From positions 1,127,029 to 1,191,028 of the forward strand of contig JADGEX010000001.1 of assembly GCA_016744135.1 (NCBI GenBank): 64,000 nt of DNA. Reading direction: 5' to 3'. Below the pieces are notes generated by a model, which saw nothing but the letters and a program-made list of their open reading frames with translations, was not told the DNA's origin and ran no database searches. Positions 10,344 to 27,188 of this stretch are shown piece by piece. Numbering within the stretch: the first letter of the stretch is position 1; every line of letters starts with the position of its first letter. Both the position numbers and the translations under genes were made by a program. Source of the DNA: Pseudodesulfovibrio sp. GTDB lineage: Bacteria; Desulfobacterota; Desulfovibrionia; Desulfovibrionales; Desulfovibrionaceae.

Positions 10344-11867
10344 TTAGTAAACCGGCATGGTGTTAGGACCATCGTCGGTATCAACTTCGACCTCTTCTCC
10401 CTCATCAGTCATGGAAACATTGGAGAGAAGACCGCCGCCGGTCATTTCTCCGACTCTGGGCTTTTGTCCCTTGACATTCGGAAGCTGAAAACTGTTGTTT
10501 GCCGGGGGCACAACAGCAACTTCTTCAGCGTGTTTACCCTGCGGTGCCCACTCGTAGGGGACACGATAGGCGCGGTACACGTAATTGGTGCCGGGGATAT
10601 TGCCGGGATAAGGAGAGATATATTCCCAGACAACCTCGCCTTCATGGGTCACTTCAATGAAGCGGCCATTGGAACCTTCGCAAATCAAAGTATTACCGTT
10701 GGGCAAACGCTGTGCGGAACTAATAAAGGGGCTGAACTCTTCATAGCCAAAGAGCTTCCAGGGCTTCTTGCGGGACTTGATGGAATATTCCCACACAACT
10801 TCCTTGGTCACAGGATCGATTTCCAATACGCGGGAGTAGAAACGATGGATTATTGCCAGTCCATTGGGGGACATAGAATTTGGTGCACCGTAGCCAGCCT
10901 GACCACCGTTGTCATAGACCATCACGTTGCTTCCACCGGGCAAGCCATTGGGAATCATATGTGTATGGTGGGGTCCAAGAATCTGACCAATCTTTGCTTC
11001 TGCACCCTGAGTATAGTCCGGGCCAAGACGCCAGACGACCTTGCCGGTCTCGTGGCTGATAATACACAGAATATTGGCTTCACGAGAGTCAAAAATGATG
11101 TTGTCAGGATGAAAACGCTTGTCGCCTGCATCGTACCATCTGTTGGGCCCGAGGTAGGATGCACAGTTCTGATGCCACCAGTCAAAGCCGTTCTTTTCGG
11201 CACCGGCCTTGGGGCTCCAGCCTTTGATGGCCTTGATGGCATCCTTATCGAAGCCATATTCCTTGAAATGCTCAGAAGCGACCCATTCCCAAATGACCTT
11301 ACCGTTTGCATCCACTTCGTACACGGTGTCGTCCATCAGCACATGGTCGCTGACATCCTTGTTCACGTGCCACTTATGCCCCAGAATCAGGGTCTTGCCC
11401 TTCATCTTGTAGCTATGGCCCGGCACATAATAAACTGGGTTACCTGCATGTTGCAGGTCATGATGCTGTGTGGAAATCCACATATCGCCTGCAGCTGGAT
11501 TCTTGGGGTCTTTGACAACCTTGGCGTACTTACCGAATTCCCAAACGGTCTTGCCATTCCAGTCGAGCTGCTTCACGGTTATGGCATCATCAATGTACCC
11601 CTTCCAACGCTCGCCGGTGGAAAGGAGCTGGCCGCCGGGCAGCATCTTTGCGGGGAAACCGTTCACGCCTTCCCATTCATTGACGAGATTGCCATTCATA
11701 TCCACAAGGCGGGCTTTACCACCTGCAATCAGCGTGTAGCCATTAAACGTCTTGTCCGGGGAATACTTTACAGTACCAGTCGGAAACACCGAGGTGGTAG
11801 CATAGGCTGCTGTAGCGACGAGAACCATCGCAAAAGCCAGCAAGGCCTGTCGTGTTAACCTTTTCAT
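10344..11867 (-). CDS. Secreted arylsulfotransferase-like protein (ASST paralog 1)
   Basis: 507 aa with a Sec signal peptide (cleavage after AAYA). The body is a beta-propeller-like repeat series typical of PQQ-like/ASST proteins: VDMNGNLVNEW, ...VYEVDANGKVIWEW, ...GKVVWRLG, ...RLPNGNTLICEGSNGR. Histidine-rich loops QHHDLQHAGNP and GPHHTHMIPNG match the positions where known ASSTs place active-site histidines. Characterised enterobacterial ASST moves sulfate from one phenolic compound to another in the periplasm without PAPS; the substrate here is unknown. The C-terminus is acidic and ends DDGPNTMPVY, resembling the tails of paralogs 3 and 4. Own promoter and terminator suggest a single-gene unit. 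Confidence 0.85.
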   Translation of the reverse strand: MKRLTRQALLAFAMVLVATAAYATTSVFPTGTVKYSPDKTFNGYTLIAGGKARLVDMNGNLVNEWEGVNGFPAKMLPGGQLLSTGERWKGYIDDAITVKQLDWNGKTVWEFGKYAKVVKDPKNPAAGDMWISTQHHDLQHAGNPVYYVPGHSYKMKGKTLILGHKWHVNKDVSDHVLMDDTVYEVDANGKVIWEWVASEHFKEYGFDKDAIKAIKGWSPKAGAEKNGFDWWHQNCASYLGPNRWYDAGDKRFHPDNIIFDSREANILCIISHETGKVVWRLGPDYTQGAEAKIGQILGPHHTHMIPNGLPGGSNVMVYDNGGQAGYGAPNSMSPNGLAIIHRFYSRVLEIDPVTKEVVWEYSIKSRKKPWKLFGYEEFSPFISSAQRLPNGNTLICEGSNGRFIEVTHEGEVVWEYISPYPGNIPGTNYVYRAYRVPYEWAPQGKHAEEVAVVPPANNSFQLPNVKGQKPRVGEMTGGGLLSNVSMTDEGEEVEVDTDDGPNTMPVY

Positions 11868-12252: not shown

Positions 12253-12582
12253 CTAACACTTGGATGGAGCCAATGCAGGCTCTGCATCCGGGTCAAAAAC
12301 GACATCACCGTCATCAGTAACCTGCGGATTCAATTCTTCCAGAAAATCCTGTGTCATACCGGGAACCTTAACCATGTCGTCAGCCTTTTTGAACGGTCCG
12401 TTGACGGTACGATATTCAACAATGGCCTTGGCAATGTCCTCGGGGACATCTACGTCTTCGATGGACATAAGCTCTTCCACGCTGGCCTTATTGAAGCTGA
12501 CAATATCATCCTGAGCAAAGGCCGCTGTGGCAAACAACATGCACAGTGCAGCCAGACAGATGGTTATGATAAGTTTGTTCAT
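12253..12582 (-). CDS. Small secreted helix-hairpin-helix (ComEA-like) protein 1
   Basis: 109 aa with signal peptide (cleavage near AAFA) and one HhH-type domain: SFNKASVEELMSIEDVDVPE..AKAIVEYR and DDMVKVPGM. Such domains bind DNA in ComEA but also act as protein interaction modules. Here there is no membrane anchor and a C-terminal Cys. It lies 79 bases after ASST paralog 2 in the same direction. A second HhH protein of the same plan (22397-22699) sits in the selenoprotein operon, so the family seems tied to this periplasmic system rather than to DNA uptake (inference). Confidence 0.75.
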   Translation of the reverse strand: MNKLIITICLAALCMLFATAAFAQDDIVSFNKASVEELMSIEDVDVPEDIAKAIVEYRTVNGPFKKADDMVKVPGMTQDFLEELNPQVTDDGDVVFDPDAEPALAPSKC

Positions 12583-12661: not shown

Positions 12662-14101
12662 TTAATCAGCCTTGATACGGAATGTGGTATTTTCCGGCGG
12701 AGTGACGGCCTTCTCCTTGGGCTGTTTCAATTGGGGAACATAGTCATACGGTACGCGCATGGCGCGATAGACCAGATTGTAATTGCCCTTTTTGGTGTAA
12801 TACGGGCTGATGTATTCCCAAACGATTTCATGATCCGGGGTCACTTCTTGGAACTGACCAACTGCGCCGTTGGTAATCATCGTGTTGCCATTGGGCAAAC
12901 GCTGTGCAGAGGACACGTAATCGGAGTAGAACTGGTACTTGTTACGCATACCCATCTGCTTGGCGGAATGTTCCCACACGATTTTCAGAGTACGAGGATC
13001 GAACTCGATAACGCGGGAATAGTCACGACGAGCATTTGACCAGCCATAAGGGGCACCGGGGTTGCGCGGGCCGTAACCAGCATAACCGCCATTGTCGTAA
13101 ACCATGATATTACCTTCACCCGGCAATCCCTTGGGAATCATGTGGGTGTGGTGCTGACCAATGATCTGACCAAGCTTCTTGTAAGCCTTCTTGTACTTCT
13201 TGCCGTTAAATTCCCAGACGGAATCCTTGTAGTAATAGGGACCAATCTGCCAAACAAGCTTGCCTGTCTTCTTGTCGATGATGCAGGACGTGTTGGTCTG
13301 ACGATTGGAAATAATGATATTATCCGGGTTGAACATGGAATACGTCTTCGGATCTTCATCGTACCACTTGTTGGGGCCGAGATAGGAAGCCGCGTTGACA
13401 TGAATCCAGTCGCCACCCTTCTTGCCCGGAGTACGGGTCATGGAGAAAGTGGGGTACTTGCGCAGAGTCTTCTTGAATTCCGGGGGGAAATTCATTTCGT
13501 CAAAATGGTCGGAAGCGAGCCATTCCCAAATGATCTTGCCGTTCTTATCCACTTCCACGATATAATCGTCGTACAATTCTTTTTTCGTAATCTTATCATT
13601 GTGTACGAACTTGTGGGACAAAATCAACATCTTGCCCTTACGGTTGTCCACAGGCATGCCGGGAGCGTGGTAGCCGACCGGATTGCCTTCAAACTGATAA
13701 TCATGGTGCATACCGGCGCGGGGAATCTTACGAACGACCTTATCGTTCCAGTCTACGACCACGAGATCAGTCGAAGATTCGTCGCCCCAAGTCCGACCCT
13801 TTTTCTCAGGCGAAGGACGCTTGGCACCAGCCAGATAGCCACCCTTCAACAACTTGGGAGGATGCTCTGCCTGACAAATATCCGTCCACTGTTTGACCAC
13901 GTTACCGTTCATGTCGATAAGCACGGTGCCTTCAGCTTCAACTTCGGTACCGAACACGGTAAAGCCATTCCAGCACTTCGAAGGCTTATAAATGGTCGTG
14001 CCATGAGGAAATACGGTGGGAAAGCTCATGGCCTCCATGGGATTGACCAAGGCGGTAGCGGCAATGGCTGCGCACCCAGTCAAAAACTGACGTCTTTTCA
14101 T
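12662..14101 (-). CDS. Secreted arylsulfotransferase-like protein, Tat-type signal (ASST paralog 2)
   Basis: 479 aa. The N-terminus KRRQFLTG followed by an alanine-rich stretch matches a twin-arginine signal, unlike the Sec signals of the other three paralogs; export of a folded protein is implied. The propeller motifs (IDMNGNVVKQW, VDKNGKIIWEW, RLPNGNTMITNGAVG) and the loops GMHHDYQFEGNP and GQHHTHMIPKGLPG are shared with paralog 1. It lacks the acidic DGP tail and ends FRIKAD. It heads a unit with HhH gene 1 and has the best -24/-12 promoter of the set upstream. Substrate unknown. Confidence 0.85.
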   Translation of the reverse strand: MKRRQFLTGCAAIAATALVNPMEAMSFPTVFPHGTTIYKPSKCWNGFTVFGTEVEAEGTVLIDMNGNVVKQWTDICQAEHPPKLLKGGYLAGAKRPSPEKKGRTWGDESSTDLVVVDWNDKVVRKIPRAGMHHDYQFEGNPVGYHAPGMPVDNRKGKMLILSHKFVHNDKITKKELYDDYIVEVDKNGKIIWEWLASDHFDEMNFPPEFKKTLRKYPTFSMTRTPGKKGGDWIHVNAASYLGPNKWYDEDPKTYSMFNPDNIIISNRQTNTSCIIDKKTGKLVWQIGPYYYKDSVWEFNGKKYKKAYKKLGQIIGQHHTHMIPKGLPGEGNIMVYDNGGYAGYGPRNPGAPYGWSNARRDYSRVIEFDPRTLKIVWEHSAKQMGMRNKYQFYSDYVSSAQRLPNGNTMITNGAVGQFQEVTPDHEIVWEYISPYYTKKGNYNLVYRAMRVPYDYVPQLKQPKEKAVTPPENTTFRIKAD

Positions 14102-14366: not shown

Positions 14367-15848
14367 CTAGTATGCATGCATGGCAGGGCCATCCTCTTCT
14401 TCGGTATCATCATTTTCATTAGCGAATCCTTCGCTTGTTCCACCGTCAAGGATTGCACCACGCTTATAGTCTTTGTAAAAACGCGGACAGTCATCGCCAC
14501 AAATATATCCCTGCGGAGTCATATCCTTACCCTTGAAGGCAGGATAATCCTTGCTGTAACGATAAGCGCGATGAATGTAGTTGTTTGCGATATCATACGG
14601 GGTCATCCCTTTCTTGGCCGTATATTTTTTGCTTTCATCAAACATACAATGCGCTTCTTCACCGAATATGGGATTCACAAATTCCCAAACAACCTTGGGA
14701 TTCTTGCCGCCAGTTACTTCGATCAGATGTCCCTGACCGGTTGAAGTGATAAAAGTATTACCATTTTCCAAGCGTTGTGCGCCACCTTGGTACATGGAAT
14801 AAAAACTGTTAGTCAGCTTACTTGTATACTCCCAAACAACTTTGCCGGTTTTGGGATCCATTTCCACTGCGCGGGAACGGTTTCCTTCAGGACGATACCA
14901 ACCATTGTCAAAAATCAAAAAATGACCATTTTGCAACCAAGTAACATGGTGATTACCAAACAGTTGTTGATCACCGTTATCGATAAAGGCAGGGGCCTTT
15001 CCGGCATCATGTGTACTCGGATTACCCCATCGGTATTCGATTTTTCCAGTCTTACGATCAATTACGTAAAATTCACCAAAGTTACGAGAATTCAGGACAA
15101 TTTTTTTACCGTCTGGAGATACATCAACGGAGTTGCAATGCGTCCAATCAACAACGTCCATTAATTCGACGATGTTACGATCACCCCTGAGATACCAGTT
15201 GATATCAATCTTATCCGGTCCGGTTCCAATATGGTCCCAAATATGCCATTCCCAAACAACCTTGCCATTCTGATCAACCTCTTGGACATAATCAGCCCAA
15301 GTGTACTTGAATTGCATCCCCCACAGCTTCAAACCGCCCTTGGGCATAGCCTTGGGATCACGGCCTTTTGCAATGGCTTCTTCATTCGTTTTTCTTTCCC
15401 AGCACAACACAAGAGTATTGCCGTTAGGAAGTCTGCGAAAAGAATGATGCTGAAGAGACGTATCGCTAAAATTCTTATACTTCCATACGAGTTTGCCATC
15501 CCAATCAAACTCTTCCAAAAGCCCACCCTCTCCGCCGAAACCGACAGTGGCAGGCTTATCCAGATGGCTGGCTCGAAGCAGATGCCCATTGGGAAGCAAC
15601 TGGGAGTGGGCTCCGGCTTTAAACTTGTGCTTCCACGTATGAACAATATTGCCTTCCATATCTATCAGATAAGTAGACGTTCCCATGCCAGGATCAAATA
15701 GTGTATACCCTTCAAGAGCCTTGCCTTCTTCATACTTCAAAACACCGGTGGGCCCGGTCAATGCCTCATAAGCCTGTGCCGGAACAGCCAACACAACTGC
15801 TAACAGCGCGGCCAGTGCAAATGTGTAAAAATTGGATTGCTTGCGCAT
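14367..15848 (-). CDS. Secreted arylsulfotransferase-like protein (ASST paralog 3)
   Basis: 493 aa with Sec signal peptide (cleavage near PAQA). Propeller motifs include IDMEGNIVHTW, VDQNGKVVWEW, IDRKTGKIEYRWG and RLENGNTFITSTGQGH; histidine loops include LQHHSFRRLPNGNT and FGNHHVTWLQNGH. Very similar to paralog 4 in signal peptide, promoter, leader (GAGGAGGAC ribosome site) and tail, which points to a tandem duplication. The C-terminus is acidic and ends EEDGPAMHAY. It has its own promoter and terminator. Cys pair CGDDC near the end is shared with paralog 4. Confidence 0.86.
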   Translation of the reverse strand: MRKQSNFYTFALAALLAVVLAVPAQAYEALTGPTGVLKYEEGKALEGYTLFDPGMGTSTYLIDMEGNIVHTWKHKFKAGAHSQLLPNGHLLRASHLDKPATVGFGGEGGLLEEFDWDGKLVWKYKNFSDTSLQHHSFRRLPNGNTLVLCWERKTNEEAIAKGRDPKAMPKGGLKLWGMQFKYTWADYVQEVDQNGKVVWEWHIWDHIGTGPDKIDINWYLRGDRNIVELMDVVDWTHCNSVDVSPDGKKIVLNSRNFGEFYVIDRKTGKIEYRWGNPSTHDAGKAPAFIDNGDQQLFGNHHVTWLQNGHFLIFDNGWYRPEGNRSRAVEMDPKTGKVVWEYTSKLTNSFYSMYQGGAQRLENGNTFITSTGQGHLIEVTGGKNPKVVWEFVNPIFGEEAHCMFDESKKYTAKKGMTPYDIANNYIHRAYRYSKDYPAFKGKDMTPQGYICGDDCPRFYKDYKRGAILDGGTSEGFANENDDTEEEDGPAMHAY

Positions 15849-16081: not shown

Positions 16082-17596
16082 CTAGTATGCATGCATGGCG
16101 GGGCCATCTTCTTCCATGCTGTCGTCTTCCTCATCAGCGTATTCTTCAGTATCGCCGCCCAAGGTTGCACCCTTTTTAAAGTCACGGAAGAAACGCGGAC
16201 AATCATCGCCACAAACATATTCTTGTGGAGTAAGGTCTCTCCCTTTCAGACCAGGGTAGTCCGGGCCGTAACGGAACGCACGATGAATCATGCCCCACAT
16301 GGAATCATCATGACCATCATAGATAGCATCTTCGTCACCCAATACGCACTTAGCCTTACCAAAGACGAAGGGATTAACAAATTCCCACACGATTTTCTTA
16401 TCGTTTGTTACTTCCATGACGTGACCACCATGGGTGGAACAAATCAAGGTGTTGCCATTGGGCAGACGCTGCACTCCACCCTGACGATGAGAGGAAAAGC
16501 TGTTGCTGTGCTGTGTATGAAATTCCCAAACGACCTTACTCGTCTTAGGATTGACTTCAACTGCACGAGAAAGTCGCTTCTCCGGTGCTTCAGAACCGTT
16601 ATCAAAAAGGAGAACGTTACCATTCTCCAATGGAACCGCGCAATGCTGGCCCCATATTTTCTGATCGCCATTGTTGTACCAACTTGGCTTTTGGGCCTTG
16701 GGATTCCAAGCGGTATCGTTACCCCAGCGATACTCAATTTCACCGGTCTTGTGATTAACAAAATAAAACTCGGACAAGTTACGGGAGTTCAACACGATGG
16801 TATCAGTTTCCGGGATATAACTGACCGTATTGAAATGAGACCAATCGTATGATGAATAAATGGAACCAACCGGTTTCGGAAGAACATAATTAAAATCGAG
16901 TTTTTTTGGTCCCTTACCCATATGATCGGCTGTATGCCATTCCCAGACAGTCTTTCCTTTGGAATCAACTTCACGAACGAAATCATTCCAAAAACCTTCA
17001 TGACTAGCCCCTTGATACACAACAGGCTCGGAAGGGATAGTCTTGGGATCACGACCCTTTTTTATGGCCTCTTCCTTGGTCATGTATTCCCAGCCAAGGA
17101 TCAGGGTGTTGCCATTGGGCATACGATGGAAAGTATGGTGATGGATCTCCTTGTACGGCTCGGCCATCTCATATTCCCAAACGACATTGCCGTCCCAGTC
17201 TATTTCTTGAACGATGCCACAAGCACCTCCAACACCGACATATTTTTTGAGATCTTTTTTACCCAGTTTCTTCCCATATTTCTTCTCCAGCTGCTTCTGC
17301 TGATTAACACGTCCACCACGAAGAAGATTTCCATTAGGCAACAGTTCAGCATACAAACCAGGACCAGTTTCGCAATCCCACGTGTGAACAATATTACCTT
17401 CCATATCAATCAGGTAAGTAGTCTTGCTCCCAACTTGGGGCGAAAACAGGGTATAACCTTCGTAGGCTTTTCCTTTTTCATATTTCAGGACGCCGGTGGG
17501 TCCTGTAGCAGCCTCATAAGCCTGTGCCGGTACAGTGAGCACAACCGCCAGCATAGCGGCCAGTGCAAATGTGTAAAAATAGGATTGCTTGCGCAT
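16082..17596 (-). CDS. Secreted arylsulfotransferase-like protein (ASST paralog 4)
   Basis: 504 aa, Sec signal peptide ending VPAQA. Same layout as paralog 3 with an extra lysine-rich insert near residues 105-125 (QQKQLEKKYGKKLGKKDLKK). Motifs: IDMEGNIVHTW, VDSKGKTVWEW, VNHKTGEIEYRWG, HHHTFHRMPNGNTLILGWE, GQHCAVPLENGN, RLPNGNTLICSTHGGH. C-terminus ends EEDGPAMHAY exactly as paralog 3, and the CGDDC pair is kept. It lies next to the second response regulator gene on the same strand, with promoter and enhancer-like sites in the 178-base gap. Confidence 0.86.
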   Translation of the reverse strand: MRKQSYFYTFALAAMLAVVLTVPAQAYEAATGPTGVLKYEKGKAYEGYTLFSPQVGSKTTYLIDMEGNIVHTWDCETGPGLYAELLPNGNLLRGGRVNQQKQLEKKYGKKLGKKDLKKYVGVGGACGIVQEIDWDGNVVWEYEMAEPYKEIHHHTFHRMPNGNTLILGWEYMTKEEAIKKGRDPKTIPSEPVVYQGASHEGFWNDFVREVDSKGKTVWEWHTADHMGKGPKKLDFNYVLPKPVGSIYSSYDWSHFNTVSYIPETDTIVLNSRNLSEFYFVNHKTGEIEYRWGNDTAWNPKAQKPSWYNNGDQKIWGQHCAVPLENGNVLLFDNGSEAPEKRLSRAVEVNPKTSKVVWEFHTQHSNSFSSHRQGGVQRLPNGNTLICSTHGGHVMEVTNDKKIVWEFVNPFVFGKAKCVLGDEDAIYDGHDDSMWGMIHRAFRYGPDYPGLKGRDLTPQEYVCGDDCPRFFRDFKKGATLGGDTEEYADEEDDSMEEDGPAMHAY

Positions 17597-17774: not shown

Positions 17775-19130
17775 TCAAAGATTATAGGTATCGATTTTAT
17801 CGTAGAGCGTCCGCCGACCAATGCCGAGGATCTTGGCAGCCTTGGAACGGTTGCCTTCTGCAACGGCAAGAGCCTGCCGAATAGCGGAAATTTCAGCCTT
17901 TTCAACGGCACTTTTCAACTCAACTGCCTGACTGGGATTTTCGTACTTGTTTTGAGCACATGTTCTCGCATTGGTACACAAGGAATCAAGCGTAATGATA
18001 TTATCGTCTGAAAGCAGCACAGCACGCTCAATAACATTCTCCAGCTCACGAATATTCCCCTTCCACGGTGAATCCATAAGCATTTGTAAAGCACTCGGAG
18101 ACAATTCTGTAACATCCTTGTTGTACCGGGTGTTGAACTTGCGCACAAAGTGATCGACAAACAACAGAAGATCATCCTGTCGTTCTCGCAAAGGAGGCAA
18201 TCGCAACGGGATAACAGCCAAACGGTAATAAAGATCCTTACGGAACTCGCCTGTTTCCACCCCTTCGTCCAGGTTCCGACTCGTGGCAGAAAGAAAACGA
18301 ACATCGATATTGATAGGAGTGTTGCCACCCACTGGCTTAATCTCCAGCTCCTGAATTGCCCGAAGGAGTTTCACCTGCGTAGACGGTGACAATTCACCTA
18401 TTTCATCCAAAAATATCGTGCCACCTTGCGCTTCTTCAAGCAGGCCACGTTTGGCACGCGTGGCCCCGGTGAAGGCTCCCTTAACATGACCAAACAACTC
18501 ACTTTCCAACAGATTTTCAGTGAGCGCACCGCAATCAATAGTGAAAAAAGGTTTGTCTGCACGAGAACTTGCCAAATGAATCCGCTTGGCAAACATGGAC
18601 TTGCCAGTTCCGGTCTCGCCCTGAATGAGTATGGGGGCATCTGAACCGGATACCTTATCCACAGTGTTCATCATCTGCTGGATAACCGCGTTGTTACCAA
18701 CGACCATGGCACCTGTCTGATCGTCTTCTTCCTGGGCATTGAAAGATTCCAGTTTGCGATGCAACTCACCGTGTTCGATGGCCCGGCGGGCGAGTAAAGC
18801 CAACTCCTGAGTCTTAAACGGCTTGGTAATATAATGGTAGGCACCAAGCTTGATGGCATCCACCGCCGTCTCAATAGACCCCGCTCCGGTCATAATTATA
18901 AAGGGCAAAATGCTATCAATAGTCCGCACCTGCTTGAGCAATTCAAGTCCGCCCATAGGCTCCATGGCAAGATCACTGACAATCAGATCATACATGGTTT
19001 CAGAGAGAGCCTTCCACGCTTCCTCACCGGACGAAGCTGTATGCACCACATATCCCTGACGGCTCAAAGATCGCTTCAGGATGGAAAGCAATTCCTGTTC
19101 ATCATCTACGAGCAGTATTTTATGAAGCAT
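17775..19130 (-). CDS. NtrC-family sigma54-dependent response regulator (second copy)
   Basis: 451 aa with receiver (VDDE, Asp53 in [13 protein letters not shown]), AAA+ domain ([24 protein letters not shown]) and Fis-type helix-turn-helix (NRSKAAKILGIGRRTLYDKI). Colinear with the regulator at 8901-10253 along nearly its whole length, so the two kinase/regulator pairs arose by duplication. Its start overlaps the kinase end by 11 bases. Both regulators bracket the ASST cluster; DNA-binding helices are close enough that cross-binding is plausible. Confidence 0.95.
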   Translation of the reverse strand: MLHKILLVDDEQELLSILKRSLSRQGYVVHTASSGEEAWKALSETMYDLIVSDLAMEPMGGLELLKQVRTIDSILPFIIMTGAGSIETAVDAIKLGAYHYITKPFKTQELALLARRAIEHGELHRKLESFNAQEEDDQTGAMVVGNNAVIQQMMNTVDKVSGSDAPILIQGETGTGKSMFAKRIHLASSRADKPFFTIDCGALTENLLESELFGHVKGAFTGATRAKRGLLEEAQGGTIFLDEIGELSPSTQVKLLRAIQELEIKPVGGNTPINIDVRFLSATSRNLDEGVETGEFRKDLYYRLAVIPLRLPPLRERQDDLLLFVDHFVRKFNTRYNKDVTELSPSALQMLMDSPWKGNIRELENVIERAVLLSDDNIITLDSLCTNARTCAQNKYENPSQAVELKSAVEKAEISAIRQALAVAEGNRSKAAKILGIGRRTLYDKIDTYNL

Positions 19131-21072
19131 CAGTCTTATCCTTATGTCGATATGCGGGAAATTCCAAAATCATACGAGTGCCGTCCCCAGCTTCCGACTC
19201 AGCGAAGATCAAGCCGTCATGACGCTCAACCATACGACGGGTAATAAACAGGCCCAAACCGAACCCGCCCTTGCGAGAAGTAAAAAAAGGCTCAAAAATA
19301 CGTGGCAAATTCTTACGAGGAATTCCTTTCCCCTCATCTTTGACCTCCAGTCGCACAGTCTGAAGATCATGTTCTCCCTGCCGCCAAACCAAAATCTCAA
19401 TAAACCCAACCCCGTCCATACTCGCCAAGGAATTAAACAGCAGATTCACTATAACCTGTTGCAAGACACGATTATCGCCTCGAATAAAGAGAGGGCCGTC
19501 CTCCACACGCACTTCAATTCTGCTCTTTTTCGCCTTGGGACCAAGCAGGGAAAGCGACTCATAAATCATGTCGCCTACATTGATTTTTTTCAAAGAAATG
19601 GGTTTAGGGGAAGCCGCTTCAAGCAGGCCTTTGGTTATCTCACCCGCACGGATGGCATTCCGCTGAATGGCAGACAATCCTTCCTTCACATCCTTGTCAA
19701 CATTAGCTTCACACAAAAGCTCTTCGGCGTTGGCCTGAATAATGCCCAACGGGTTGTTGACTTCATGGGCTATACTTGCCGCCATCTTCCCGATAATTCC
19801 AAGTCGCTCAGATTGAATGAGTTCCTCTTCCATACGATTACGTTCCATCACATTTCGCGCAAAGAGACAGGCAAGGAGCTCTGTATGCAACGGCCCCTGT
19901 ATAACGCGACCGGCAATCTCCACTTCCATCGGGTTGCCTGACACACTCTGCATGCTGAATTCATGCTTGTCGCACCCGTCATTAAAAACTTTGGTCAAAA
20001 ACGCCGCGATTTCATCAACATCATCAGGGACCATGATCTGCCCAAGATTCACAATATCATCCTGATCCGGAAACAAAAGAAATGATTGAGCGCGCTCGTT
20101 GGCGTGCAAGATATCGCCAGCCTCGTTGACCAAAAAAATCACATCCGGGGAAGACTCGATCAAATCACGATACCGTTGTTCTGTCCGACGTAAATCGCTG
20201 GCAGCTTTGTCCACTCGACGTTTGAGCGAAACATTCCACAAAACAATACCGATAAAAATCAAGCCGACTATCGCCACAGCAATGGCAATATGTTTGGCAT
20301 AGTAAGTGAGGCCGTCCCTTCGCGAATGCTCACCAAACCATTTATCTCGCAATTGAGCCAAATGTCCGGTTTCCCGCAAGTGCCGCACGGCAGACATCAG
20401 GTCAGCGGCAAACTGCCTGTCGTGCCGAGAAACAGACAGTCCAAGAGGCACTTCACCCAAGACCTTCCCTTTTTTCTCAATATTCGAAAAACCATTCTGA
20501 TCGATCAGGTAATCCGCCACCCTCTCGGACGGCGCCACAAAAATTTCAACAACACCCTGATCAAGCATACTCAAGGCTTCAAGCGGAGAGGTCACTCTGA
20601 TCACATCATCGCCGAACTCGACTTCCGGGCTATAGGGAGCCCCGGTAATAGCCACCACACGCTTGCCAGCGAGTTTATTTGAATTATTAACCACTGGACT
20701 ATTCGTGTTGACGAAAAGATGATTACGCAGACTGTATCCCAGCGGAATAAAAACAAATGAAGAACGGGAAGATGGACGTGATCCGTGTGCCATGAGGTCA
20801 AGTTGCCCGTCTGCATACATGCGAGGGTAGTCAACCAGACTATCTACAAGGACAAATTCGATATCCGCATCAAGCAGTTCACCAAGCAAAACCCATTCAT
20901 CGATGGAATAACCACGAACCCCTTGTTCGCCATCCTGCATGGCAAGAAACGAAAATGGTGGAGATATAGCCCGAATACCAACTTTGCAAGTCTCACGACA
21001 CCACGCATTGCCAGCGGAAAAGAAAAGAACAAACGCCATAAGAATCAGGCTGAGGTAAACGGAGCGTCGCAT
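19120..21072 (-). CDS. Periplasmic-binding-domain histidine kinase (second copy)
   Basis: 650 aa from the ATG at 21072, giving a signal peptide MRRSVYLSLILMAFVLFFSA; an open frame continues upstream to 21237 but crosses a strong hairpin at 21143-21167 and has no typical leader. Domains: SBP_bac_3-like sensor with two extra Cys near the N-terminus (WCRETC), membrane helix, PAS, HisKA (IAHEVNNPLG), HATPase (DEGKGI, GFGLGLF). Paralog of the kinase at 6964-8901. The sensor halves are much more different than the kinase halves, which suggests different ligands feeding one set of promoters. Confidence 0.92.
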   Translation of the reverse strand: MRRSVYLSLILMAFVLFFSAGNAWCRETCKVGIRAISPPFSFLAMQDGEQGVRGYSIDEWVLLGELLDADIEFVLVDSLVDYPRMYADGQLDLMAHGSRPSSRSSFVFIPLGYSLRNHLFVNTNSPVVNNSNKLAGKRVVAITGAPYSPEVEFGDDVIRVTSPLEALSMLDQGVVEIFVAPSERVADYLIDQNGFSNIEKKGKVLGEVPLGLSVSRHDRQFAADLMSAVRHLRETGHLAQLRDKWFGEHSRRDGLTYYAKHIAIAVAIVGLIFIGIVLWNVSLKRRVDKAASDLRRTEQRYRDLIESSPDVIFLVNEAGDILHANERAQSFLLFPDQDDIVNLGQIMVPDDVDEIAAFLTKVFNDGCDKHEFSMQSVSGNPMEVEIAGRVIQGPLHTELLACLFARNVMERNRMEEELIQSERLGIIGKMAASIAHEVNNPLGIIQANAEELLCEANVDKDVKEGLSAIQRNAIRAGEITKGLLEAASPKPISLKKINVGDMIYESLSLLGPKAKKSRIEVRVEDGPLFIRGDNRVLQQVIVNLLFNSLASMDGVGFIEILVWRQGEHDLQTVRLEVKDEGKGIPRKNLPRIFEPFFTSRKGGFGLGLFITRRMVERHDGLIFAESEAGDGTRMILEFPAYRHKDKTDAS

Positions 21073-21142
21073 GCCGGTCCCATAACGCAAAGAGCCACTA
21101 TGCACCAGCCCGTACAACGTCCATTTCCCCAAAACAGGGACT

Positions 21143-21167
21143 GCCCCCGGCATGTCTATGCCGGGGG
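21143..21167 (-). terminator. Strong hairpin ending the selenoprotein operon
   Basis: CCCCCGGCAT pairs with ATGCCGGGGG around a 4-base loop. No T-run directly follows on the minus strand, but it lies between the last operon gene (ending 21221) and the kinase start (21072), so termination is its likely role. Confidence 0.6.
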
Positions 21168-21220
21168 AAATCTCAGGGAGGAGGTATGATGAATTTATAC
21201 TATTCATCTGGTTATGATAA

Positions 21221-21919
21221 CTATTTGGTCTCGCCAATCAACACGGCTTTGTACCCTTTTCCTATGTCATTTCTGGCATCGGAATACACCATGATGATAT
21301 CCATGAACCGGCCGAGCTTGTTTGGTGTGACTAAAAACTCAATGGGTGCGGTCTGCCCGGCTTCGAGTTTCAGTGCGCCCTGCCAGTAAGTCGTCTTGAA
21401 CTTGCGCGACTTGACGGCCGTCACGGTCATAGAGGCGTCACCAGAATTCTTGATCATGATTTTAGTCGGAGTAGCCTTGCCATTGACCAAACCTTCCACC
21501 GTGGTCTTGCGCGGGGTTACAACCATAACACCCATAGGGATCGGATCGACATAACCGACGATATGAATGGTCTGTTGGCTTTCCTTGCCTTCACCCGTGC
21601 TGACCGTCACGGTCTTGTCGAATTTACCAGGATACTTGAACGTGTTGTAGCTGATGACCATTTCAACAGATTCACCAGGATTGATGCTGCTCTGTCCCAG
21701 AGCAGTTGTGGTGCAACTTCACGAAGTCGTCACGTTCTTAATCGTGACAACCTCCTTGCTGACATTGGTGAGCATTACCATTTTGCTGGCAACAGGCCCT
21801 TCGGTCATGGAACCAAAATCAACCTTTATATCGCTGATGGAAATAGGCTGAGCCGCCATTGCCGAGGAGGCAAACAGCAAACCGAACACCAAAACCATGA
21901 GCTGAACTTTCTTGAACAT
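21221..21919 (-). CDS. DUF1573-type periplasmic protein with in-frame UGA (probable selenoprotein)
   Basis: 232 aa if the TGA at 21721-21719 is read as selenocysteine. Upstream part: signal peptide ending AMAAQ, then a beta-rich domain VDFGSMTEGPVASKMVMLTN. Downstream part continues in the same frame: SCTTTALGQSS.NPGESVEMVIS, and then a second Ig-like domain. DUF1573 proteins normally carry TSCGCT followed by PGES; here the same place reads TS-U-SC-T, so Sec67 replaces the first Cys of the CxC motif. There is no codon loss or frameshift on either side. A hairpin suitable as a SECIS follows (21687-21705). Without readthrough the product would be a 66-residue fragment. Last gene of a seven-gene operon; a redox role beside the tetraheme cytochrome is inferred. 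Confidence 0.8.
21687..21705 (-). promoter_or_regulatory. Candidate bacterial SECIS element
   Basis: Minus strand CTGCTCTGGGACAGAGCAG folds into a perfect stem with an apical GGGAC/GGA loop. The stem starts 13 bases after the UGA and the loop guanines are at bases 21-23 after it; in E. coli fdhF the loop guanines lie at about 19-20. A smaller hairpin AGTTG/CAACT lies just before it. Confidence 0.7.
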
Positions 21920-21928
21920 AGTAAGTCC

Positions 21929-22387
21929 TTACTTTTTCCCGTGAACAAACCGAGATTTCAAACTGTAGTCGAAGTTCTTGTCCTGCCCCTCGGTATGACA
22001 GGTGCGACAATTGTCCTCACCGGGCTTCCCGATAATATCCTTGGGGTCCTCGGACTCGGTATGAGCCAACCCCGGACCATGGCAGGATTCACACTGAACA
22101 TCCTTGAGTTCAGGGGTCAGTTCCATGTCAATGAAGCCGCCGTCCGCATCCATTGCCACCACGTGACATTGGACACAGCCCTGCACCTGTTGCTTTTCCT
22201 CGCCCTGCTCCTTGAGGGTCTCGAAAGCGTGCGCATGCGGGGTCGTCTTCCACCCCTCCACGATCTCAGCGTGGCAGTCCGCACACGCTGTGTACCCCAC
22301 GTAATCGCCAAAAAGTTCGGCATTGGCAGCCGAAACCAGCGACAAGACAAAGAAAATGGCAACGATGCTGAGCACAAGGCGATTCAT
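21929..22387 (-). CDS. Periplasmic tetraheme cytochrome c (c554-like)
   Basis: 152 aa with signal peptide (cleavage near ANA). Four CxxCH heme-binding motifs at about residues 35 (CADCH), 71 (CVQCH), 99 (CESCH) and 127 (CRTCH), each covalently binding one heme c after export. The CESCHGPG sequence and spacing resemble the cytochrome c554/NapC-like multiheme group rather than the cytochrome c3 of sulfate reducers. The gene sits 9 bases upstream of the DUF1573 selenoprotein and is surely co-transcribed. It is a natural electron partner for a periplasmic redox enzyme; direct partner unproven. Confidence 0.9.
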   Translation of the reverse strand: MNRLVLSIVAIFFVLSLVSAANAELFGDYVGYTACADCHAEIVEGWKTTPHAHAFETLKEQGEEKQQVQGCVQCHVVAMDADGGFIDMELTPELKDVQCESCHGPGLAHTESEDPKDIIGKPGEDNCRTCHTEGQDKNFDYSLKSRFVHGKK

Positions 22388-22396
22388 GATATATCC

Positions 22397-22699
22397 CTAA
22401 CAGTTACAAGATGATGCAGGTTCCAAGAACAAGAACTTGCTCAGTTTACGCAATAAGGTGGAATCAATGCCGTCCACATCAAGCAATTCATCCATATCCA
22501 CGAACTCTTCATTTTCAGTACGCAACTCGATAATTGCCTCGGCCATGGGCTGATCAATGCCGTCGATGGCAACCAACTGCTCCACGGTTGCGGTATTAAG
22601 ATTAAGCTTGCCATCATTGTCACCGGCAAAAGCGGGAACAGAGGCTATGGCAATGGTCAACAGAAGGGTCAATGCGATGATGATATTTTTCATTTTCAT
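22397..22699 (-). CDS. Small secreted helix-hairpin-helix protein 2
   Basis: 100 aa, signal peptide ending AFA, HhH domain (LNLNTATVEQLVAIDGIDQPMAEAI and MDELLDVDGI), ending SSCNC. Same plan as the 109-aa protein at 12253-12582: secreted, HhH, Cys at the extreme C-terminus. Located 9 bases before the cytochrome gene. Function unknown; a protein-docking role in the periplasm is as plausible as DNA binding. Confidence 0.75.
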   Translation of the reverse strand: MKMKNIIIALTLLLTIAIASVPAFAGDNDGKLNLNTATVEQLVAIDGIDQPMAEAIIELRTENEEFVDMDELLDVDGIDSTLLRKLSKFLFLEPASSCNC

Positions 22700-23090: not shown

Positions 23091-24251
23091 TTAGGCCGGA
23101 AGCAGGCCGGTTTTGACGCAAAGCAGGATCACTGCCAGCAACAGCGCGATACGAATGAATCCGGCAATACAGGTGACCAGAAATCCTTTGAAGCCATGCT
23201 CACCTATGTCACGGAAGGAAAGGGAAAGCCCAAGAGCACCCGCTGCCAGCGAGAAATCCCACCTGACCATTTCAAAAATGGCATGATGTGCAGGCTCCTT
23301 AAAGACATGCAGGCAGGCCAGCACCCAGAAGAAAATGAACACGCCAAGCCACAACGGAAAAGTCTTGATGCCACGGGTGGCACGGACTTCCTCATTATTC
23401 CTGTTCCGCAATTTGCGAATGAACATGACGATAAAGACGTACAGGAAGCCGGCGGGCATAATCACATGGCGACCAACATCAAACCAGCTTGCCCAACGCC
23501 CAGCCTCGTAACTATTGCCAAAGGCGGCATAAAGGCCTTGTGTGCCGTTACCGACACCGACAACGGATGCCAGCCCGAAATATTTGGCCGGAATACCAAC
23601 CAGATCACCCAGAACTGGCAGAAGCTGCATGGCAATTAGGCCAAAGACAATGACACAGACAAAGGCGTTGACGACCTGACCGCCCTTGGCTTTGATCAGC
23701 GGCATGAGAATGGCGCAGACATGAGGATCACCTGTAGAAAGGCCACCCGCGATGATGGAGCCATGCCGGTCATCCAACTTGAGCAGTCGGGAGACCCCCA
23801 ATGTCACAGAGGCTGTGACAAACAAGGAGCCGGTACAAATCAAGATGGGGATCAGGCCTATCTTGAAAGCATGACCGATCATGAAATGAGGGGCCAGCAT
23901 GATGATACCCAACGGCATCAACATATGAATGTAGGACAGTCCACGCTTCCAGCTATCCGGCACACCGAAGATGTTCCCAATAAGCAAACCGAGCAGCAGC
24001 GGATTCCAGACAAAGTTAGAGTTCAATATCTGAAAGAAAGGCTGATGGTTCAGCGGACCGATAACTCCGTCAAGCCATGCAAACAGATTCTGGAGCGTGA
24101 ACGGATTCGGCACGCCCGCCAAATTGTTACTGAAGATGGCGACAAAGAACATTGCCAGCAGACCGGGCAGCACTTCCTTGAGGCTGTAAAGCGAACTGAA
24201 CCAGGATTTCCTGTTCAGATCGTAGTTCAATGTTGCACTCGAAGTATTCAT
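23091..24251 (-). CDS. PSE-family membrane transporter (YeiH-like, 'putative sulfate exporter')
   Basis: 386 aa from ATG 24251, which has GAGGA six bases upstream; the ATG 12 bases earlier overlaps that site. About ten hydrophobic helices and the family features (GLLIGNIFGVP, GLSTGDPHVCAI, VVGVGNGTQGLYAAFG, DIGEHGFKGF). Members of this family (PF03601) are annotated as sulfate exporters but few are characterised; some belong to sulfonate or taurine utilisation loci. Here it sits in an operon with periplasmic redox proteins and near ASST genes, so an anionic sulfur compound is the natural guess. Direction of transport unknown. Confidence 0.8.
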   Translation of the reverse strand: MNTSSATLNYDLNRKSWFSSLYSLKEVLPGLLAMFFVAIFSNNLAGVPNPFTLQNLFAWLDGVIGPLNHQPFFQILNSNFVWNPLLLGLLIGNIFGVPDSWKRGLSYIHMLMPLGIIMLAPHFMIGHAFKIGLIPILICTGSLFVTASVTLGVSRLLKLDDRHGSIIAGGLSTGDPHVCAILMPLIKAKGGQVVNAFVCVIVFGLIAMQLLPVLGDLVGIPAKYFGLASVVGVGNGTQGLYAAFGNSYEAGRWASWFDVGRHVIMPAGFLYVFIVMFIRKLRNRNNEEVRATRGIKTFPLWLGVFIFFWVLACLHVFKEPAHHAIFEMVRWDFSLAAGALGLSLSFRDIGEHGFKGFLVTCIAGFIRIALLLAVILLCVKTGLLPA

Positions 24252-24281
24252 TGTATTCCTCATATTTCTTATAAATAGCCG

Positions 24282-27188
24282 CTAGCGACGGATATGGGCG
24301 GAACCGCCGGTATTCACCGAGCCACTCAACTTTTCATGTGGAGCATGCTGTCCGATACGCCAGTAATCCTTGAAGGCGAGACGGGGCAGCATTGAAAGGC
24401 GCAGGAAACCTTCGATAGTCCCGTTAACTCCCACCAGCACGTCGACGTTGTTCCTCGGACGGAAGGCAAGATTCTCAGTGGAATAGTGCTTTTTCCTGTA
24501 CTCGGTCTCGATGTGCCATGCGTGAACCATTTCACCGTCAAAGCTATCCACCACAATCGTAAACAACGGTTTACCATTCTCATCACGAGGGCCTTCGTAG
24601 ACAGGATGTTCCTTGTCCAGAATGATAGTCTCAGGGTTGTCCAAAAGGACTTCGTTGAGCTGATAGCAGTGACCACAAACGTCAGGGCGAACCATGAAGC
24701 GTGGATCATGTTCGAATGGTGTGTCTCGCTCCAATTCCTGAATGTCCGTAAAGAAGTAGAGATTGACCTTGCCGTCCTTGAAGGGCTTTTTCACATCCAG
24801 TTCGGCCATGACGGAACCATATTTGAGCTGCATGGTCTGGGCGACATCCTGATGCTGTGGCAGCAATTCTTTGGCGGCGGCGTTCAGCGGGCCAAGAATT
24901 TTGGAATCAACGTGATTGCCCTTGGCATCAAACAGGGTCAGGCCAACGGTTCCGGCGGTGGCATCAAAACTGTTGAGCTTCAATGTAAACTTCCCAAGCT
25001 TTGCCGTTTCTCCGACAGCCAGAGAATGCCCTTTCGGCTTGTTGAAAGAGTAGCTGATGGCCTGAATAGACGGCGTGCCGAATTCCTTGATCTTCACGTA
25101 ATTGGAACCGATGTACTCCGGTACAATGTAGGTAGCTCCTTCCGAAAAGACTTCTGGCATATAGTAGCGATTGCCCGCTTTTTCATCTTCATTGAAACCT
25201 TGCGCAAGGTAGAAATGTGCGCCCCAACGGTTACCGGAATATTTCATAAGAGAAAGCGAGGCCACAGGACGGTCATCCAGATAAGTATGGCCGGTATACC
25301 GAAGTGCCTTGTTGCGCACGCCGAGCATCTCATCCTGCCAGTACATCAGGTTACCGTCGCCCATCGGCTGGTTCTTCCAGAAATCCAAATCCAAATTTTT
25401 ACGGACAAACGTACCGGAGGTAAATGTCGCCAGATAGGCACGCTTGCCGAGCAAAAAGAAAGACTCGCCTGCCAGCGTGCGGATATTTCGCGCATTGCGG
25501 GAGGTGTAGCAGAGGCCAGCAGGCGGAATGACGATACGATTATTCTTGTAATCAACATAGCTGCCGCGAATGACGATGGCCTCGGCGGACAACAATTTTT
25601 CCCGTTTACGATTACGCGAGGTCTTGCGCATCAACCCTTTGAGGCGAGGCACAAAGGGCGCGGTGTGATCCGGCTCGTAAAAGGAAGAGTTGGGCACAAT
25701 CTTGGGGTAGGAAGTAAAACGGGATTCCTCGACCACGGTGCCGTATGAAGAATCGGCAAGACGTGTAAGAAAACTACCTTCGATCATCGGTTCAAGGACC
25801 GGAGAAGAACCAAGAAAGAAATCGAGGTTAGTACGCCCTTCGTCAGCCCACATAACCATATTATCCGTCCGCATCATATAATAGTCGCGAACATACAGAT
25901 TACGGACCACGTCGCCTTCAAATTTGTTGGCAACTACTTTGAACGCGGGACGATTCCAAATTTCAGAATATTTCACAGGTCCGTCAAAGCTGTCGTTGTC
26001 GTTGTCAAAAACCAACACGTCATTGTTCTCAATGAGCAAACGCTGCAACATCCCTGTCTTGAGATTCGGCTCAAGCACAACAGAATACCGAGAATCCAAA
26101 GGCCAGTCCTGACCGTTTTTCACGGTAACGAGATCACGATAAACAACAAAGGAAAAATGGCCGGTTGAATATCCATGAGACTTGCTGGTGGCCCAAGGCA
26201 CAAAGTCGGAATCCTTGAGAAAACTTGGATCCATGACAATCTCAACACGCATATCCAACTCGGGAATCGTCAGGTTGTACTTGTCCTTTTCCCCCATCCG
26301 TGACTTGTACTCCTGCGCAGATGTCGGCTTGACCAATTTCTCGGCCAGCACTTCGCTTCCAGTAAAGTTGGTGACCTTCACCATAAAACCATCAGGCTGG
26401 CGGTAAGCATAGATGCGCTTGTCACCATAGAAACGATAGTCTTCCTGGCGTACTTCCAGAATTATTGGACGCTGCATGGAAAAAGTCGCATCCGTGATTT
26501 CTGGAAATTCAATGGACTCAAACACGGCATCGTCAAAATCGATCTTGCTGGCCACATACTTGCTGGCACCGAAATAATAGGTGTTGTCCAGATAGAAATT
26601 CTCCAACTGGGAATTCAATCCTTCCTTGAGAGAAAGCTGACGGACCTCTTCACGCTTGGGAAACACGGTTGAAATAGGAAATTCAAGCGGCCATCCACCA
26701 GACGGGGACATCACAGCCAGTTCGGCATACGGCTTTTCATAATGGTCCGTGGAATAATCGAACCAGAGGCGGTACCCGGTGTCACCCAGCGGTTTCCGGT
26801 CACCCTTCTTGAGAGCGAAATCCTTAAAGACTCGCTTGGTAGAATTAAGGTCTACAAGATACGCGTGTTCGCCCAACACAAGAAATGGATCGCGCATGAA
26901 AGGACGAGCATCGTGGGATGTTTCGGAAAGATAGAACAACCCGCCGGGTTGAACTGTGGCTTTGCCATCCTTGATCTCGCTGCCGCGCATGATGATGGCT
27001 TCGGACAAATGTTTTTTCTGTCCGTACTGGTTCTTGAAAACCTTGTTTCTCAAGCCTGCCAAGTGCGGCAAAAAAGTCATATCCGCTGCCGGGGACAACC
27101 CGTGCGGATCGTTGGCGGCCAAACCTACTGTAGGTATGGCAAAAAGGATCGCCAACGCGATGGCCAGAAGTCGTACTGTGTTTTTCAT
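24282..27188 (-). CDS. Large secreted protein of unknown function with internal duplication
   Basis: 968 aa with signal peptide (cleavage near GLAA). I do not recognise the family. About residues 38-180 and 510-660 are clearly related: 'FLPHLAGLRNKVF..' / 'FVPRLKGLMRKTS..', 'LSEAIIMRGSEI' / 'LSAEAIVIRGSYV', 'PGGLFYLSETSHDAR' / 'PAGLCYTSRNARNIR', 'FLVLGEHAYLVDLNS' / 'FFLLGKRAYLATFTS'. The protein is beta-rich and has no membrane helix after the signal. A CGHC pair near residue 835 resembles a thioredoxin-type motif but the surrounding fold is not thioredoxin. First gene of the operon ending with the DUF1573 selenoprotein. It may be a large periplasmic enzyme or binding protein for the compound moved by the PSE transporter (inference). 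Confidence 0.8.
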   Translation of the reverse strand: MKNTVRLLAIALAILFAIPTVGLAANDPHGLSPAADMTFLPHLAGLRNKVFKNQYGQKKHLSEAIIMRGSEIKDGKATVQPGGLFYLSETSHDARPFMRDPFLVLGEHAYLVDLNSTKRVFKDFALKKGDRKPLGDTGYRLWFDYSTDHYEKPYAELAVMSPSGGWPLEFPISTVFPKREEVRQLSLKEGLNSQLENFYLDNTYYFGASKYVASKIDFDDAVFESIEFPEITDATFSMQRPIILEVRQEDYRFYGDKRIYAYRQPDGFMVKVTNFTGSEVLAEKLVKPTSAQEYKSRMGEKDKYNLTIPELDMRVEIVMDPSFLKDSDFVPWATSKSHGYSTGHFSFVVYRDLVTVKNGQDWPLDSRYSVVLEPNLKTGMLQRLLIENNDVLVFDNDNDSFDGPVKYSEIWNRPAFKVVANKFEGDVVRNLYVRDYYMMRTDNMVMWADEGRTNLDFFLGSSPVLEPMIEGSFLTRLADSSYGTVVEESRFTSYPKIVPNSSFYEPDHTAPFVPRLKGLMRKTSRNRKREKLLSAEAIVIRGSYVDYKNNRIVIPPAGLCYTSRNARNIRTLAGESFFLLGKRAYLATFTSGTFVRKNLDLDFWKNQPMGDGNLMYWQDEMLGVRNKALRYTGHTYLDDRPVASLSLMKYSGNRWGAHFYLAQGFNEDEKAGNRYYMPEVFSEGATYIVPEYIGSNYVKIKEFGTPSIQAISYSFNKPKGHSLAVGETAKLGKFTLKLNSFDATAGTVGLTLFDAKGNHVDSKILGPLNAAAKELLPQHQDVAQTMQLKYGSVMAELDVKKPFKDGKVNLYFFTDIQELERDTPFEHDPRFMVRPDVCGHCYQLNEVLLDNPETIILDKEHPVYEGPRDENGKPLFTIVVDSFDGEMVHAWHIETEYRKKHYSTENLAFRPRNNVDVLVGVNGTIEGFLRLSMLPRLAFKDYWRIGQHAPHEKLSGSVNTGGSAHIRR

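Follow-up and report, generated by a model that had tools for sequence, protein, structure and literature searches.

The bacterial SECIS element is a hairpin that lies shortly downstream of the UGA and carries a G within its small apical loop. Selenoproteins of the DUF1573 kind have been in print since 2008, when OS_HP2 (pfam07610, motif UxC) was tabulated as a selenoprotein family (PMC2398784). DUF1573 with the motif UGC is also found in the tables of two reviews, of 2022 (PMC9312934) and 2026 (PMC13188914), the former of which credits the DUF1573 selenoprotein to a 2007 paper on the Olavius symbiont. The initial annotation of the locus described here, which knew of no DUF1573 selenoprotein, had overlooked this published record.

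The window analysed is a stretch of 64,000 nucleotides from Pseudodesulfovibrio sp., and the coordinates of its relevant features are collected in Table 1. As the initial annotation described, two minus-strand open frames share one frame, are parted only by the TGA at 21721-21719 and run to a TAG. DUF1573 was likewise confirmed on both sides of the UGA, given that the Pfam match of the read-through product (PF07610; E 1e-22, 80.4 bits against a gathering cut-off of 26.1) covers residues 28-124 and spans residue 67. The motif around the UGA is TS-U-S-C-T, which places USC within the DUF1573 domain, where published members read UxC or UGC. The protein was the sole DUF1573 match of the genome (E 0.001). 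It is most likely a two-domain Ig-like (DUF1573) protein; its N-terminus, judged by eye, looks like a signal peptide, and export is the most likely fate of the product. In the predicted structure (four input sequences; pLDDT 86.4, pTM 0.60) the fold is made of strands, and residue 67 would sit in the short turn that links strand 62-65 to strand 70-74. Annotation that treats the UGA as a stop splits the gene into two pieces, and the protein is therefore easily overlooked.

Table 1. Coordinates of the DUF1573 gene, its recoding signals and the surrounding gene cluster in the window.
Feature	Position	Strand	Details
Second small HHH protein, exported-looking	12253..12582	-	Ends PALAPSKC
Arylsulfotransferase-like protein	12662..14101	-	
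Arylsulfotransferase-like protein	14367..15848	-	
Arylsulfotransferase-like protein	16082..17596	-	
Sigma-54 response regulator	17775..19130	-	
Sensor histidine kinase	19120..21237	-	SBP_bac_3 and PAS domains
Predicted DUF1573 selenoprotein gene	21221..21919	-	232 aa read through; residue 67 = UGA; TAG end
SECIS-type hairpin	21687..21705	-	8 bp stem, GGA loop
In-frame UGA (predicted Sec codon)	21719..21721	-	Aligned UGA in 11 other genomes; Cys in 6 copies
Tetraheme cytochrome (Cytochrome_C554)	21929..22387	-	Pfam 1.3e-19; 4 CXXCH; signal-peptide-like N-terminus by eye
Small helix-hairpin-helix (ComEA-like, HHH) protein, exported-looking	22397..22699	-	HHH_3 7.1e-16; ends CNC
PF03601 (YeiH-type) membrane permease	23091..24263	-	
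968-aa exported-looking protein	24282..27188	-	C-terminal CGHC, codons 24677-24666

The aligned UGA recurs in a second assembly of the same species (G060), in G034, G011, G015, G010 and G007 of the same genus, and beyond the genus in G038 (same order), G107 and G384 (same phylum), a Desulfoluna MAG and an Acidobacteria MAG; the G384 sequence is a more distant UGA form within the DUF1573 branch. Homologs with Cys aligned to the UGA, for which the initial annotation had suggested a search, were found in G021, G026, G013 and G033 and as the second tandem copies of G010 and G007. Their alignment with the UGA agreed with its expectation; the CGC motif it had given for the family did not hold here, as the Cys copies of the branch read CSC or CAC, and CGC was found in the more distant DUF1573 proteins L072 and L073. 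Throughout the 16-row alignment, the residue in this one column was either U or C (L064, L070 and L071 were placed by their motif; L023, apparently the same contig as L016, was left out of the alignment and of the Cys set). With the own genome counted in each case, a DUF1573 match was present in 12 of the relatives' 60 genomes, among them a weak match of the UGC type in G046, and in 5 of the 395 genomes of the phylum sample, two of these being the distant Cys proteins L072 and L073. Within the genus, the DUF1573 branch occurred in 11 of 36 genomes, again including the own genome. A scan of contigs yielded three DUF1573 loci, of which one apparently duplicates a contig already counted as G026. 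Sec and Cys copies stand in tandem in G010 and G007 (L048, L049), and their second halves are very alike; gene conversion is a possible explanation of this similarity.

A genuine stop codon, arisen by a recent nonsense mutation or a sequencing error and followed by a decaying frame, would be in keeping with TGA being a stop in table 11 and with the ATG that the second half possesses. This explanation is extremely improbable, since the same UGA is present in the second assembly of the species and in ten other genomes, and selection is evident past it. The dN/dS ratio downstream of the UGA was 0.10-0.34 in seven of eight pairs, those with finite dS, and upstream, where dS was finite for five pairs, four of these gave 0.06-0.18 and the G010/G007 pair gave 1.10 (over 65 codons); many dS values exceeded 1, and the ratios are therefore rough. 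Both sides of the UGA thus appear to be mostly under purifying selection, and the covarying hairpin and the Sec machinery described below further oppose a real stop. The scenario against which the initial annotation had warned, a UGA private to the genome with a degenerate downstream part, was checked, and the UGA proved common to the relatives, with a downstream part that is conserved and selected. A private nonsense mutation was ruled out by these two observations.

A tree of 15 rows (L020, L064, L070 and L071 left out) joined the Cys copies in one group with a support of 100/100. Midpoint rooting set this group among the Sec rows, and only four of the 12 inner branches were starred. Because the Cys copies group together and tandem pairs exist in G010 and G007, we infer a single change from Sec to Cys in one DUF1573 copy, which would later have displaced the Sec copy in some species.

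Downstream of the UGA, positions 21705-21698 of the minus strand pair with 21694-21687 around a GGA loop (21697-21695), giving a hairpin of the SECIS type with G in a small apical loop. The stem begins at the 14th base from the UGA and the loop at the 22nd. The hairpin of 7-8 bp that the initial annotation placed 21-23 bases after the UGA can thus be specified further: the 8-bp stem is real, and the distance fits the loop. Across 11 distinct Sec sequences (alignment A5, gapless), the stem was paired in 96.6% of 88 cells and showed changes on both sides at six of its eight pairs; this count leaves out L064, which is from the same species and does not differ from the window over the 48 bases, and L020, which is of the UGC type and in another register. 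The covariation score was 0.461, compared with 0.153 in shuffles, and was reached by none of 500. Equally, none of the 500 shuffles was as high on both pairing and double-sided changes, and 46 of 500 reached the observed value of the measure of further pair types. Control stems slid along the alignment paired in 24-55% (maximum 54.5%). In the six Cys sequences, by contrast, the same columns were paired in 39.6%, with a double-sided change at one of eight pairs.

The hairpin was also compared with those of other candidate codons. The window has 18 in-frame TGAs that are flanked on either side by more than 60 open codons. Of these, the UGA at 21721-21719 was followed by the longest hairpin at this spacing, and no other had a stem of 8 or more pairs; the runner-up (plus strand, 13037) had 7 pairs and a folding energy of -12.3, against -12.0 for the DUF1573 hairpin. 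Random synonymous recoding of the window gene matched the stem length in 19 and the energy in 46 of 5000 cases. This test covered six of the 11 distinct Sec sequences, the window's among them, and for the five besides the window the observed stem and energy were reached, respectively, by 3 and 27 (L019), 355 and 74 (L025), 124 and 154 (L024), 150 and 813 (L071) and 138 and 2161 (L014) of 5000 recodings, the energy being therefore unremarkable for L071 and L014. The recoding test on single sequences is weak for some homologs, and the cross-species comparison is the decisive evidence for the predicted element. An Rfam scan of 21400-22000 returned one match, algC, at chance level (E 3.4). A chance hairpin was ruled out by the covariation among Sec copies, the contrast with the Cys copies and the comparison of the 18 TGAs.

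The genes selA, selB, selC and selD, which the initial annotation had thought worth seeking, were all found in the genome, so that its concern over a lack of selB or selC does not apply. The scores were 612.5 bits for selA, 398.8 for selB, 340.8 for selD and 78.7 for tRNA-Sec, each above its cut-off, and missing Sec machinery was thereby ruled out. The tRNA-Sec was present in 15 of 15 genomes checked, the own genome included, and selA in nine of ten other genomes, the exception being G461, a genome that is 70% complete. The selD gene (L027) carries an in-frame TGA of its own, and SelD of this genome is therefore likely a selenoprotein too.

Another amino acid, such as Trp or Cys inserted by near-cognate suppression, can be envisaged at residue 67. 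The probability of this is minimal, as homologs carry Cys at the site, the Sec machinery is complete, and a covarying hairpin stands at SECIS distance in the Sec copies and not in the Cys copies. The shared UGA, the Cys copies, the covarying hairpin and the Sec machinery together support the Sec reading of the initial annotation, and the DUF1573 gene almost certainly encodes a selenoprotein.

The gene lies in a conserved neighbourhood. Permease, HHH and cytochrome genes adjoined it in 13 of the 17 loci examined; of the remainder, G384 had the cytochrome only (3.6-kb locus), and no permease, HHH or cytochrome gene was found in the loci of G046, G347 and G123, the last two of which span only 3.6 kb. 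The 968-aa gene adjoined the permease in 12 of those 13 loci, and in G107, where the locus was short, it was located on the contig that carries the DUF1573 gene, in the same orientation and ending 2.4 kb ahead of it. Within the genus, the 968-aa gene and the DUF1573 branch co-occurred in the identical 11 of 36 genomes. In the nine same-genus loci among the 17, the DUF1573 gene was followed by the kinase, the sigma-54 regulator and an arylsulfotransferase-like (ASST-like) gene. In G038, the kinase and regulator followed DUF1573, and the ASST-like and second HHH genes lay beyond the 968-aa gene. The Desulfoluna MAG had the kinase and regulator and no ASST-like gene within 8.7 kb. In the Acidobacteria MAG neither the kinase nor the regulator was matched, and an ASST-like gene lay on the opposite strand; G107 had a regulator on the opposite strand. 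In the window, the listed TTG start of the kinase frame overlaps the end of the DUF1573 gene, and the true start is probably further in. ASST-like genes number four within ~7 kb of the window, the fourth, in addition to those of Table 1, lying at 10344-11867, also on the minus strand.

The cysteines of the neighbouring products were well conserved. The eight heme Cys of the cytochrome (four CXXCH) were kept in 14 of 14 sequences, as was the CNC tail of the first HHH protein (14/14), and both Cys of the CGHC in the 968-aa protein were present in 13 of 13. The PSKC tail of the second HHH protein was found in all nine rows, a count that leaves out two rows representing the first HHH protein and the G034 row, truncated where its locus ends. 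The tails CNC and PALAPSKC look like carrier arms.

The 968-aa protein had no Pfam or NCBIfam match above cut-off, and its relatives were found in two further settings. In G353 and G086 (L086, L087), the 968-aa gene (48-50% identity) and the permease (31-33%) occur with ASST-like genes and with an HHH protein whose tail is CTC, and no DUF1573 of the branch was detected in these 17-kb loci (E 1e-3) or among the matches listed in the phylum search. These clusters adjoin genes for a molybdopterin oxidoreductase and NrfD, accompanied by 4Fe-4S proteins that were recognised by Pfam (G353) or by eye (G086). Such an arrangement hints at one system that is served by several redox modules, the DUF1573-cytochrome pair perhaps among them.

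Half-length relatives of the 968-aa protein were found in another family of the phylum (loci L078-L081 and L088-L092), with matches in 6 of 21 genomes. In five of the six, the codon opposite the first Cys of the CGHC motif was an in-frame UGA, the sixth match ending short of the site; the site reads RPDT-U-STC in these relatives and RPDV-C-GHC in the 968-aa protein. The 29 bases starting at the UGA were identical in all five, and selA was present in four of the five genomes. No Pfam or NCBIfam match above cut-off was obtained for the members searched (three by NCBIfam, two by Pfam), and the UxxC region matched the copper protein NosL at 15 bits, below the cut-off of 24 (E 0.03). Single-sequence folding gave no clear stem after the UGA, the hairpin being weak, and the case therefore rests on the conserved UGA, the Cys alignment and the conserved nucleotides rather than on a SECIS. 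The half-length relatives can thus be put forward as a candidate second selenoprotein family with the motif UxxC. Of the nine selenoprotein families that the deep-Sep paper of 2025 reports as new (PMC12013277), three consist of hypothetical proteins, and the UxxC relatives could consequently be among these three.

On this basis, SelB and Sec-tRNA, guided by the hairpin after the UGA, would insert Sec at residue 67 to give a U-S-C redox pair. Once exported, the protein would carry out selenol/thiol redox chemistry outside the inner membrane, forming a selenenylsulfide at U67-C69 and exchanging electrons with the tetraheme cytochrome and the CNC-tailed HHH protein encoded alongside, with the 968-aa CGHC protein perhaps as a further partner. 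A redox role for the selenoprotein is highly probable, and a periplasmic selenol/thiol relay is the function that we would propose. The naming of the cytochrome, the HHH protein and perhaps the 968-aa protein as partners is tentative, and the two lineages G353 and G086, which keep the 968-aa gene, the permease and the HHH protein with its CxC tail where no DUF1573 of the branch was detected, count against it.

The UxC might instead bind or detoxify a metal or metalloid, such as Cu or Hg, rather than transfer electrons to its neighbours, and the below-cut-off NosL match among the UxxC relatives points in that direction. We regard this as unlikely, since the tetraheme cytochrome and the CxC-tail protein adjoin in the 13 of 17 loci noted above, and molybdopterin oxidoreductase and NrfD genes lie beside the cluster in two other lineages.

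DsbL and DsbI are disulfide catalysts for AssT of uropathogenic E. coli. By analogy, catalysing disulfide formation in the cluster's ASST-like proteins could be the dedicated task of the DUF1573 protein; in one of them, the 479-aa protein, C43 (11/12) and C76 (10/12) could pair. The Cys columns of the 504-aa group are patchy (V120 and H157 of the window protein sit at columns with Cys in 6 of 10; C319 occurs in 9/10 and C466 in 5/10), and therefore no Cys pair is common to all, which makes such a dedicated role quite improbable.

The redox relay could belong to a larger arrangement. The Cys-tailed HHH proteins and the CxxC/UxxC 968-aa protein suggest that a redox system operates in the periplasm, one for which no name was found in the libraries and literature searched. 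The two HHH proteins would serve as carriers, with flexible Cys arms at the C-terminus (CNC and PSKC) that shuttle electrons or sulfur among three proteins: the DUF1573 protein with its UxC, the 968-aa protein with its CGHC, and the tetraheme cytochrome, which the molybdopterin oxidoreductase would replace in other lineages. That the cluster is such an undescribed periplasmic selenol/thiol carrier system, including the second, UxxC selenoprotein family, is a possibility we hold as doubtful. The same conserved cluster occurs with the Sec form, with the Cys form or, in two species, with both in tandem; it is a natural experiment, and the value of Sec relative to Cys is therefore measurable in closely matched systems.

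Comparison with described proteins places the locus as follows. The window protein resembles the ASPM-SPD-2-Hydin (ASH) Ig-like domains, with matches to Pfam ASH (3.3e-07) and HYDIN/CFA65/VesB-like Ig (8.5e-17). The top Foldseek rows were chains of the cilium central apparatus and the SPD-2 domain of CEP192 (E down to 8.8e-13), and five weak matches, led by HYDIN (E 0.0031), came from a sequence search of the PDB. It differs from these domains in that the TM-scores by query length were just 0.28-0.41 and the identities 9-16% among the 50 rows listed. The best NCBIfam match of the window cytochrome was to positions 403-519 of the UshA-like (seleno)protein NF041198 (E 1.4e-34; 119.6 bits against a cut-off of 275), from which it differs in being free-standing, with 152 aa, no UshA part and no in-frame UGA.

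The closest described system is OS_HP2 (NF041425). No description of the branch or of its cluster was found in the family libraries and the literature searched, a search largely outside full texts. The window protein shares with OS_HP2 the DUF1573 domain and a Sec at the first position of U-x-C. All 15 members of set A1 matched the OS_HP2 model at E <= 0.001 (best 5.3e-16); the window protein scored 51.3 and L071 60.2 against a cut-off of 100, unlike the UGC-type protein L020 of G046, which scored 126.9, above the cut-off, and in whose 17.5-kb locus none of the cluster genes was matched (E 1e-6). The window branch differs in carrying U-S-C or U-A-C and in the position of its gene within a conserved cluster, whereas OS_HP2 is listed as UGC/UxC. 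Given its score below the OS_HP2 cut-off, the window protein therefore represents a further branch of an already known kind of DUF1573 selenoprotein: the gene is not the first of its family to be described as a selenoprotein, and it forms a branch of its own.
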